Assembly: GCA_027483765.1 (NCBI GenBank)
Contig: JAIXTW010000003.1
Coordinates: forward strand, 62,001 to 126,000
From: Streptomycetaceae bacterium
GTDB taxonomy: Bacteria > Actinomycetota > Actinomycetes > Nanopelagicales > Nanopelagicaceae
Direction of reading: 5' to 3'
Length of the DNA stretch: 64,000 bases
The notes beneath the pieces were generated by a model that worked only from the letters and a program-made list of their open reading frames with translations, ran no database searches and was not told the origin of the DNA. Made by a program: the position numbers and the translations under genes. Positions 45,655 through 51,800 of the stretch are shown piece by piece (the first letter of the stretch is position 1; each line of letters opens with the position of its first letter).

Positions 45655-45726
45655 GGACGATTGGCTCAGCGGTAGAGCACCACATTGACATTGTGGGGGT
45701 CACTGGTTCGATCCCAGTATCGTCCA
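45655..45726 (+). tRNA. tRNA-Val (GAC), integration target
   Basis: Acceptor GGACGAT/ATCGTCC-A, anticodon loop TTGACAT, T-arm CTGGTTCGATCCCAG. Confidence 0.96.
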
Positions 45727-45727
45727 C
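45704..45727 (+). repeat. attL core (within tRNA-Val 3' end)
   Basis: TGGTTCGATCCCAGTATCGTCCAC, identical to 51777-51800. Confidence 0.93.
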
Positions 45728-45834: not shown

Positions 45835-45873
45835 GCGATTGAAACATCTATCCTTAACTGGAAGGTGTCAATC

Positions 45874-46716
45874 ATGTTGGTATCAACATACTTAGAAAAC
45901 TACCTAGAGCGTCAGGCTTACAGAGCCTCTACTTCTAGAAACTACACAAAGCACATCAAGCAACTTGGATTCATGCAATTAGAGGTTGATCAAGTTACCC
46001 CCAAAATGATCATGGATTCTTGCGCTCGCATTGATACCTACACAGTAAGGCGATCAGCCCTGATCTCTTGTAGAGCCATCTTTAAAGAACACTTAGGTTT
46101 GGATCACAAAAAGATCCCAATACTCCCCCATGTTCAAAAGGTCTATGAATTTCCCACTCAGGACGAACTTCACGAAATGATCAACAGAACAAAATACCGA
46201 CTTCAACTTCTTCTGTGTATGTATGCAGGTCTAAGGGTTGGCGAGGCTTGCGGAATCAGGAGACAGGATTTGATAGGCAATCGACTAACCATTACTCGTC
46301 AAGTGAGTCAGGATGGGGTTATTTCTACTGCTAAAACCATTGGCGTAGTCATCATTCCTAACTGGCTAGCAGACGAGATTCATGGAACTTCAGGCGATCT
46401 CTTCCCAGAGGGTAAGGGAAGCCTCGTAGTTACCCATGCTTGTAGAAATCAGTCAGATAGAACAGGCAAACAAATGAATCCTCATCTACTTAGACATTGG
46501 TATTGCACGACCCTGATAAATAACGGAGCGAATCCTGAAATAGTTAGACGCCAGATGCGACATGCAAGTCTCAATACGACGATGAGAACTTATGTTCAGG
46601 TTAAGCCATCCCAGATTTTAGACAGTCTGCCAGTGGTTTCAGAAGGGCAGATTGGAAGGCTTAGCAGGTCGATAGAGGCATCTTTACTTGATGATCCATC
46701 TTCAGTTATGGTCTAG
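45874..46716 (+). CDS. int: Tyrosine recombinase/integrase
   Basis: Catalytic residues in MYAGLRVGEACG, HLLRHWYCTTLINNGANPEIVRRQMRHASLNTTMRTYVQV; SD GGAAGG before ATG 45874 (ORF track uses an upstream non-ATG start). Confidence 0.94.
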   Translation: MLVSTYLENYLERQAYRASTSRNYTKHIKQLGFMQLEVDQVTPKMIMDSCARIDTYTVRRSALISCRAIFKEHLGLDHKKIPILPHVQKVYEFPTQDELHEMINRTKYRLQLLLCMYAGLRVGEACGIRRQDLIGNRLTITRQVSQDGVISTAKTIGVVIIPNWLADEIHGTSGDLFPEGKGSLVVTHACRNQSDRTGKQMNPHLLRHWYCTTLINNGANPEIVRRQMRHASLNTTMRTYVQVKPSQILDSLPVVSEGQIGRLSRSIEASLLDDPSSVMV

Positions 46717-46740: not shown

Positions 46741-46784
46741 GTTTGTCTAGATAGTTAAAGATATGAAAAATTATCTAGACAGAC
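46741..46784. repeat. 13-bp inverted repeat downstream of int
   Basis: GTTTGTCTAGATA / TATCTAGACAGAC (one G-T), 18-nt spacer, no U-tract. Confidence 0.8.
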
Positions 46785-46825: not shown

Positions 46826-46856
46826 TTGACCATCAGAAAAATGTTTCTGGTATAAT
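46826..46856 (+). promoter_or_regulatory. Strong sigma70-type promoter with extended -10
   Basis: TTGACC (46826-46831), 19-nt spacer, TGG-TATAAT (46851-46856). Confidence 0.7.
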
Positions 46857-46862
46857 TGTATA

Positions 46863-47022
46863 TAGCAAGGTAGAGAGAAGTCTTGTAAGGGTTCGTTAGC
46901 CCACTTCTCAAAGCCCTTAGGCATAGATGGTCACTGCGTATAAGTGACGCCTACAACATCTAATTGATCACTGAAAATAAAGGTGATCAGCCAAGGGTTT
47001 TATTCTGAAAGTTTCCCTTTTT
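46863..47022 (+). ncRNA. Candidate structured small RNA or leader segment, unknown family
   Basis: Consecutive hairpins: GAGAAGT/ACTTCTC, TAGGC..GTCACT/AGTGAC..GCCTA, TGATCAC/GTGATCA, AAGGG/CCCTTTTT; promoter immediately upstream; no ORF. Confidence 0.5.
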
Positions 47023-47055
47023 AACAAACTGCACACAAACCAAAGATGGCTTTTC

Positions 47056-47174
47056 GTGGGGTTTTACACTGTTTCATATGGAAATACTTTTCCAGAGATC
47101 AATGTAAATCCCACCAATCCTTATAAGAATCTAATTTATAAGGGTAGGTGGGGTTTTCCCTAAATCTCTGGAAA
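47056..47174 (+). promoter_or_regulatory. Candidate bistable RNA element
   Basis: Central strand TTTCCA...AAATCCCAC can pair with upstream GTGGGGTTT...TGGAAA or downstream GTGGGGTTT...TGGAAA; the downstream form has 11+10+8 bp nested stems. Confidence 0.55.
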
Positions 47175-47220
47175 TGAGTATTAAAGATTAACTACAAAGA
47201 ATAAACAAGAAAAGGGATAA

Positions 47221-47484
47221 ATGAATATGACAAATCTAGAAAGAATTATGAAAGATCTTCAAACAACAATTGGAGAAAAGCAAGCAAAATCAGGAGCAAG
47301 AAAACCAAGAAGATCTACAAGGGCTGACGGAACCAATCCAAGAGCCAAGGGAACCAATCCAAGAGCCAAAAAGGTTACTTTCACTGAAACCAAGACCAAA
47401 ACTGTTCTCGTTGAGACCTTTGATGCTCAAGATTGGGATGAAATCTTGTCACTTGAAGAACGATGGGGGTACGACTATGAGTAG
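47221..47484 (+). CDS. Small basic protein of unknown function (87 aa)
   Basis: ORF with weak AGGGA SD, duplicated GTNPRAK motif, basic middle and acidic C-terminus; stop overlaps next gene start. Confidence 0.6.
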   Translation: MNMTNLERIMKDLQTTIGEKQAKSGARKPRRSTRADGTNPRAKGTNPRAKKVTFTETKTKTVLVETFDAQDWDEILSLEERWGYDYE

Positions 47485-48274
47485 ACAATCTGGCAAGAAG
47501 AAAAAGTTCCTTCCCAGCACTGACTATTCACACTTAAAGCCTCATCGGAATACAGGTGAGATTCTTGAAGCAAAACGACTTAAACCAGAACACGCCAGAC
47601 AACTACAAATTGCCTTGAATCATGGAACAGAACATATCGCTGGCTATTTTTCTTGGGCTGAAAATGCCAAAAGTTGGGATACAAAACGATGCCTATTTTG
47701 GATTCGGCAGATCAACAGAGAGAAACTTCCCTCTGAACACTATGCATTCTTCCTCGGAAAGGAATTAGTTGGAATTGGAAGCCTAAGACCTCATGGGAAC
47801 ATACGCTCTGTTCAAATGGCTTATTGGGTGAGCAAGAAATACATTCAGCAAGGCATAGGAAAAAGTATTGCAAAGACCATGGAGGATCTTGCTATCAAGT
47901 ATCGACCTTACCAATACATATTTATTGATCATGATAGTTCGAACAGATCAAGTGGAAAGATTCCTCAAAATTTGGGATACAGGTTTGTAGGAACATTTGA
48001 CTCTGATATTCATGCTAACAAGGAATCTGGACTTTGGTACTCGTGGGTGAAAGAGAATCCAAGATATTCAGAATGTGAAAATGAACGAATGTGCGAAATA
48101 CATTTTGCAATACTCTGGTGCGAAATGATGCTTGAAACGCAACCTGAGATATACGAAGAGGAGTACATACAGACTCACAGGGAAGCGATCAAAGCATTTC
48201 AAATGGAAAGAGAAAATGTGCGCACTATGAAATCGATTGAACTTGAGTTCCCCTTGGATGGTACTTCTGGCTAA
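47477..48274 (+). CDS. GNAT-family N-acetyltransferase (RimJ/RimL-like) with C-terminal extension
   Basis: MAYWVSKKYIQQGIGKSIAKTMEDLAI acetyl-CoA motif; ATG 47477 is in frame with the longer ORF and overlaps the upstream stop. Confidence 0.82.
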   Translation: MSRQSGKKKKFLPSTDYSHLKPHRNTGEILEAKRLKPEHARQLQIALNHGTEHIAGYFSWAENAKSWDTKRCLFWIRQINREKLPSEHYAFFLGKELVGIGSLRPHGNIRSVQMAYWVSKKYIQQGIGKSIAKTMEDLAIKYRPYQYIFIDHDSSNRSSGKIPQNLGYRFVGTFDSDIHANKESGLWYSWVKENPRYSECENERMCEIHFAILWCEMMLETQPEIYEEEYIQTHREAIKAFQMERENVRTMKSIELEFPLDGTSG

Positions 48275-48391
48275 CAAATTCAGAAATCCTTACTAATGGA
48301 ACTGTAATTTCTTTCAAGAGCAAGCCTATAAATCAACTTGGGTAATCGTTCGTGTGTGACAACCTCGTAAGTCAGTGGGGTTTAGTAGCCT

Positions 48392-49549
48392 ATGGTTGTG
48401 AATGCCTCCTCTCAGCCTTTGACTGTGACTCACCCTGAATTGGCTAAAGAGGCTAACGGCTGGGATCCTTCCAAAGTTTCCAAGGGCATGAAACGCAAAC
48501 TTAGTTGGAAATGCTCTAAGGGACATGTTTATCTAGCGACAGTGGTACATAGAACTAATAAAAAGAATCCATCTGGTTGCCCCATTTGCACGAATAGGGT
48601 CATCCTTAGCGGCTTTAATGATTTGGCTTCACTCTTTCCTGCCCTCGTTGAGGAAGTTTACGGATGGGATCCGACAGAAGTAGGTGCGGGATCGAGAAAG
48701 ATTCTTCCATGGAGATGCAAAGAGGGGCATGTGTGGAATTCCAGTGTTACACAAAGAACATCGGGTGGTTATCGCAGTGAAGGAACTGGATGCCCATTTT
48801 GCGCAGGAACAAAAACTCTCACTGGATTTAACGACCTATCTACTACTCACCCAGAGATCGCAAAGGAAGCCAATGGTTGGGAGCCATCCGAAATTTCGGC
48901 AGGAAGTTCAAAACGACTTTCTTGGAAATGTTCCCTAGGACACGAATGGAAATCTATGGTTCATAGCCGAACACGAAGTAGATCGTCGGACTGTCCATAT
49001 TGCACGAATCGAAAGGTGTTGATCGGTTTCAATGATTTGAAAACAACACATCCAGATATAGCAAAAGAAGCAGATGGTTGGGATCCGACATCGGTTACAA
49101 GAGGCGTTGATAAACCGAGGAAATGGAAATGCGCACAAGGACATAAGTGGTCAACTGGCGTCATGGTTAGAACAAGAGGAAGCGGTTGCCCTTCATGTTC
49201 AAAAACTGGTTACGATCCGAATTTAAGTGGTTATCTATATTTGATAGAACATCCAATTTGGAACATGTATCAAATAGGCATCACTAATGATCTAGAAACA
49301 AGAATGAAAGCACACGGACAACTGGGTTGGAAGCCAATGCAGTTTCGTGGACCCATGGATGGTTTATTGGCTAAGGAATGGGAGACCAGCATTTTGCGAT
49401 TGCTTCGCCTCAAGGGTGCGGACCTCGGAAATCAATCTGTCGTTGGTAAATTCGATGGCTATTCTGAAGCGTGGTCAAAAGACACTTATGAACCTAAGTC
49501 CATCTCCGATTTGATGAATGCCGTAAAGGAAACTGAAGATGACAAATAA
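48392..49549 (+). CDS. Four DUF4379-like zinc-ribbon repeats + C-terminal GIY-YIG-like nuclease domain
   Basis: Four units with W-[KR]-C-x2-GH-x-[WY] and CPxC; C-terminus YLYLIEHPIWNMYQIGITNDLETRMKAH...EWETSILRLLR. Confidence 0.85.
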   Translation: MVVNASSQPLTVTHPELAKEANGWDPSKVSKGMKRKLSWKCSKGHVYLATVVHRTNKKNPSGCPICTNRVILSGFNDLASLFPALVEEVYGWDPTEVGAGSRKILPWRCKEGHVWNSSVTQRTSGGYRSEGTGCPFCAGTKTLTGFNDLSTTHPEIAKEANGWEPSEISAGSSKRLSWKCSLGHEWKSMVHSRTRSRSSDCPYCTNRKVLIGFNDLKTTHPDIAKEADGWDPTSVTRGVDKPRKWKCAQGHKWSTGVMVRTRGSGCPSCSKTGYDPNLSGYLYLIEHPIWNMYQIGITNDLETRMKAHGQLGWKPMQFRGPMDGLLAKEWETSILRLLRLKGADLGNQSVVGKFDGYSEAWSKDTYEPKSISDLMNAVKETEDDK

Positions 49550-51776: not shown

Positions 51777-51800
51777 TGGTTCGATCCCAGTATCGTCCAC
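51777..51800 (+). repeat. attR core, duplicated tRNA-Val 3' segment
   Basis: TGGTTCGATCCCAGTATCGTCCAC identical to 45704-45727; no tRNA 5' half here. Confidence 0.93.

Follow-up and report, generated by a model that had tools for sequence, protein, structure and literature searches.

What does an RNA strand able to pair either upstream or downstream do just ahead of the cargo genes of a small mobile element? This question is raised by a hairpin region (47056-47179) which a preliminary description had presented as a bistable RNA resembling attenuators and riboswitches. In streamlined freshwater actinobacteria, integrative elements can be very small, and gene control within them has, to our knowledge, been little described. 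Should the leader investigated here turn out to be an attenuator, the element would illustrate silencing of cargo without a protein repressor; otherwise, it would illustrate how an extended hairpin with one arm partly duplicated can mimic a switch.

The Host Element and Its Genes

The host genome comprises 1.29 Mb in 11 contigs, and the window, i.e., the whole stretch of 64,000 nucleotides analyzed, covers positions 62001-126000 of contig 3. The size of the genome and its genes point to a streamlined freshwater actinobacterium. The hairpin region lies inside a 6.07-kb integrative element inserted at a tRNA-Val(GAC) gene identified by ARAGORN (45655-45727, plus strand, as are all features below unless stated otherwise). 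The 3' end of this gene constitutes the left attachment repeat (45704-45727), a 24-nt exact direct repeat with 51777-51800, the right attachment repeat at which the element ends. The element encodes a tyrosine integrase (45871-46716, with the ORF open from 45823; Pfam PF00589, 4.4e-14). Its best phage match is that of Streptomyces satellite phage Mulchroom (36% identity; for the system, see PMC10690885), hinting at a satellite-like origin. Right after the integrase stop codon, an inverted repeat (GTTTGTCTAGATAGTT / AATTATCTAGACAGAC, 46741-46784) may be an operator or a terminator.

The first cargo ORF (47221-47484) encodes 87 amino acids, is preceded by the Shine–Dalgarno (SD) sequence AAAAGGG, and overlaps the start of a coupled gene for a GNAT acetyltransferase (47477-48274; Pfam PF13302, 2.6e-08). 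It is an orphan, since searches of Pfam and PHROG gave no match and no homologue was found among 135 genomes of the genus. The element further encodes a DUF4379 protein that weakly matches GIY-YIG, one unknown protein and, on the opposite strand, an isochorismatase and a DJ-1/PfpI protein. It also contains a 504-nt non-coding stretch with a G+C content of 34.5%, compared with 41% for the element and 49% for the contig. The placement of the hairpins directly before the first cargo ORF, as initially described, is borne out, the downstream hairpin ending about 42 nt from the ATG at 47221.

Two Hairpins With a Common Strand

The six sequence segments on which the preliminary description was built are present at the positions it gave: GTGGGGTTT...TGGAAA flanks TTTCCA...AAATCCCAC on both sides. 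When the region was folded, as had been proposed there, both pairings formed hairpins, which are termed here U (upstream) and D (downstream) and share a central strand (47085-47116) paired in both.

The dominant fold is D (47086-47179), a hairpin of 35 pairs with an energy of -42.0 kcal/mol that was reached in 0 of 1000 shuffles; the best 95-nt window in these shuffles attained -36.1 kcal/mol. It consists of an innermost stem of 11 bp (47117-47127/47135-47145), a middle stem of 10 bp (47106-47115/47147-47156) and an outer stem of 14 bp with a 2-nt bulge (47086-47099/47164-47173+47176-47179). The preliminary description had announced nested stems of 11, 10 and 8 bp. The 181-nt region containing both hairpins folds at -53.7 kcal/mol (z -4.29), with none of 200 shuffles as good, and the downstream complementarity to the central strand was equalled in only one of 5000 dinucleotide shuffles. 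Both the stability of D and this complementarity are thus well above chance.

The fold U (47056-47114) has 24 pairs, more than the two short stems initially pictured, and an energy of -21.8 to -22.6 kcal/mol. Complementarity between the central strand and the upstream sequence (46990-47084) was equalled in 18 of 5000 dinucleotide shuffles, which makes U, a structure selected by eye from 64 kb, only moderately unusual. When the 13 nt between the repeated blocks were shuffled, the energy of U was still reached in 984 of 5000 trials, and it is therefore credited mostly to the blocks GTGGGGTTTT and TGGAAAT. In a comparison of energies alone, about six other places in the 267-kb contig pass the two energy thresholds jointly, and each of them has a higher G+C content (0.50-0.64).

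Because of G-U pairs, RNA of the plus strand folds better than RNA of the minus strand. This holds for D as a whole (-42.0 vs. -36.9 kcal/mol), for its inner stem (-25.4 vs. -19.3) and for U (-21.8 vs. -20.1). Under DNA parameters, D reaches -21.3 and -21.2 kcal/mol on the two strands, i.e., no preference. Since RNA prefers the plus strand and DNA parameters are neutral for D, a role as plus-strand RNA is favoured.

The inner stem of D (47106-47156) is preceded by a run of A and followed by a run of T, a layout with some likeness to a terminator. After the stem there is one more U and then CCC (GUGGGGUUUUCCC), so that the U run at the 3' edge is no longer than UUUU. A consensus scanner lists no terminator in D, a silence to be read knowing that this scanner may disallow the internal mismatches of the stem. 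The inner stem would be, at best, a weak terminator. A survey of terminators along the contig was uninformative, the number of convergent gene pairs being too small.

Order of Formation and Competition

Folding of successively longer prefixes indicates that U forms once position 47115 has been made, that the inner stem of D appears by 47155 and that its outer stem follows by 47175. The initial proposal of two mutually exclusive folds competing for one strand is upheld; U would form first and D replace it. Bistability was too strong a term: the energy of D is below that of U by 8.7 kcal/mol within the 181-nt region and by 8.1 kcal/mol in the local context, and conversion of U into D must cross about 9 kcal/mol along the lowest path found. 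In a simple Arrhenius estimate, crossing such a barrier takes on the order of seconds, so that U is predicted to exist briefly but to be absent at equilibrium. At most, U would be a transient made during transcription.

The ribosome-binding site AAAAGGG is paired equally in the U and D states. A translational switch by masking of the SD sequence was rejected because of this identical accessibility, and any effect of the alternative folds must therefore act on transcription.

The Leader Upstream of the Hairpins

Two features upstream of the hairpins had been overlooked in the preliminary description. A pattern scan revealed a candidate promoter (46826-46856) made of TTGACC, a spacing of 19 nt and an extended -10 site, TGGTATAAT (46848-46856). 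It is absent from the list of the consensus scanner, whose accepted spacing is 16-18 nt. Downstream of it, a compact structured RNA domain of 131 nt (46875-47005) is predicted, combining a hairpin with a three-way junction that the pairing AAAGCCCUUAGGC/GCCAAGGGUUUU closes. This domain folds at -48.0 kcal/mol (z -4.86), with 0 of 200 shuffles as good, and it has no match in Rfam.

Along the strand, a promoter-like site is followed by the compact domain, the alternative hairpins, the SD sequence and the ORF. Such an order is suggestive, though only suggestive, of a regulatory leader, and it is plausible that the promoter-like site, the domain and the hairpins together make up a structured leader of 360 nt.

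Search for Relatives

At gathering score, a scan against Rfam 15 returned tRNAs only, and under a relaxed threshold only hairpin-type matches far below their own gathering scores. At the DNA level, 296 genomes of the family were searched, followed by genomes of the order, which amounted to the same set; the window itself was recovered and, beyond it, a single 28-nt match that covers the SD region but has other surroundings. The 5' domain and the hairpin were each turned into a covariance model from this one sequence and searched for in 295 genomes; besides the window, there were only weak matches, which proved, on inspection, unlike the query. Phage records searched at the DNA level contained no homologue, and pattern scans of viral contigs gave either nothing or 17-mer matches in unrelated contexts. 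No homologue, and hence no covariation, was found in these sets.

Relatives of the element itself do exist, as searches with the integrase, the GNAT protein and the 87-aa ORF established, and none of them was seen with the leader. Elsewhere in the family, integrases of about 40-45% identity adjoin genes for tRNA-Val or tRNA-Lys. The only relative of the integrase found under a name is from an Actinomycetota MAG. A closer one (97%), in genome G145, stops at a contig edge, and the remainder of the element was not found in that genome. A related element (L042, on contig 113 of genome G191) lies beside tRNA-Val(TAC) and, judging from its ORFs, a GNAT match and DNA similarity to the DUF4379 gene, carries GNAT and DUF4379-like proteins, suggesting that this pair is a recurrent cargo set. 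Its non-coding region contains other hairpins and no triad with a shared strand.

Possible Roles of the Hairpin Region

The sequence features of the putative structured leader are real and their layout is attenuator-like, in line with the initial comparison to attenuators and riboswitches; comparative support for a switch, in the form of a homologue, was not obtained. Two mutually exclusive hairpins with a common strand are present, and the candidate extended -10 site (46848-46856) stands on the same strand as the ORF at 47221. As in attenuators and riboswitch expression platforms, the shared strand is predicted to pair with an upstream arm first and then with a downstream arm, giving a stem that resembles a terminator ahead of the first gene. 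In contrast to these systems, the U tail is weak, the default state is strongly favoured, and neither a known sensor domain nor a conserved family is seen, no Rfam 15 covariance model matching the region.

We tentatively favour, with a confidence that stays short of even, a structured leader in which the dominant hairpin may be a leaky terminator or an insulator and U would be a transient of the modeled folding pathway. The hairpin region would be the 3' part of an untranslated leader to the cargo operon, with transcription probably starting near 46863 from the putative promoter. RNA polymerase would pass the compact 131-nt domain, after which U would arise as a short-lived intermediate until D, the presumed default state, takes over once transcription has produced its 3' arm. 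Acting as a polarity barrier or as a weak and leaky structure of terminator type, D might insulate the 87-aa ORF and the GNAT gene or lower their expression. Since U covers the 5' half of the inner stem of D, a brief antiterminator role is possible. Computation yielded the folds and the order in which they form, and we infer the promoter, termination, regulation and any sensed signal. This interpretation is supported by the stability of D beyond chance, its preference for plus-strand RNA and the appearance of U before D in prefix folding. It is also supported by the energy gap and the barrier, the extended -10 site, the second structured domain, the SD sequence and ORF about 42 nt downstream and the coupling of this ORF to the GNAT gene. 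Counting against it are the short U tail (UUUU, then CCC), the silence of the scanner, the missing homologue and the lack of the arrangement in L042.

The same hairpin could also serve without any alternative fold. D would then be an insulating or bidirectional hairpin at the boundary between integrase and cargo, and the upstream GTGGGGTTTT...TGGAAAT a partial duplication of its arm arising by chance or by mutation, for instance through a template switch close to a quasi-palindrome. One study reports that template switching creates and maintains RNA hairpins (PMC8794818). The two repeated blocks account for U, itself only moderately rare, and the A run before and T run after the inner stem would suit a terminator in either direction. 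However, the two flanking copies have different middles, and the central strand nevertheless pairs across nearly the whole of 47056-47114; we regard this account as rather unlikely. In a regulated switch, a signal sensed by the 46875-47005 domain or by some other factor would lead to stabilization of U, so that D is blocked and transcription continues. Such a switch fits the succession of a structured domain and two mutually exclusive hairpins, which is that of an expression platform, and the 24 pairs of U. Yet the 8-9 kcal/mol advantage of D is a large cost for a ligand to meet, unless it works kinetically; covariation and homologues were not found, and a fold of the whole leader (46863-47220) shows zero pairing between the domain and U. 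A regulated switch is therefore unlikely. The bolder proposal of a new regulatory leader class of small tRNA-integrated elements in freshwater actinobacteria, with a 131-nt sensing domain and a kinetically controlled U/D hairpin gating the cargo, appears quite improbable.

Leader-peptide attenuation finds an echo in a 26-codon ORF (47046-47126) spanning U, which, unlike known leader peptides, has no clear SD sequence or run of a single codon and is of a length common by chance. A structure acting as DNA, such as a recombinase arm site, a MITE or a single-strand origin, could be evoked by a long imperfect inverted repeat near the integrase of a mobile element. The repeat is nevertheless present as one copy at one locus of the genome, which does not suit a multi-copy MITE; its flanks show no clear target-site duplication, and the nearer att site is 1.3 kb away. 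With DNA parameters indifferent to the strand and RNA favouring the plus strand, a role at the DNA level is very improbable.

In satellite phage P4, the CI RNA is a central segment which pairs with sequences on either side, leading to termination, in a seqA-CI-seqC layout (PMC4825925). The present leader likewise belongs to a mobile element, and its central strand finds a complementary copy both upstream and downstream, which is the same A'-A-A'' topology. By analogy, the central strand might be released as a small RNA pairing with its flanking copies and perhaps with 48375-48383. The best phage match of the integrase, to a satellite phage, speaks for this reading, as do the three occurrences of GTGGGGTTT, the only ones in 267 kb and all within the element. 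Unlike in P4, P4-type genes are not recognized here, neither Pfam nor PHROG revealing a replication, capsid or other satellite gene, and the likeness is one of topology read from sequence. No such RNA family is among the Rfam matches, and only a slight chance is left to antisense control of this type. Pairing of the central strand to the start of the ORF at 48392 was rejected as no better than chance, the duplex with 48361-48392 (-14.1) being equalled in 136 of 2000 shuffles. The third copy of GTGGGGTTT, at 48375-48383, is located 17 nt ahead of the start of this ORF.
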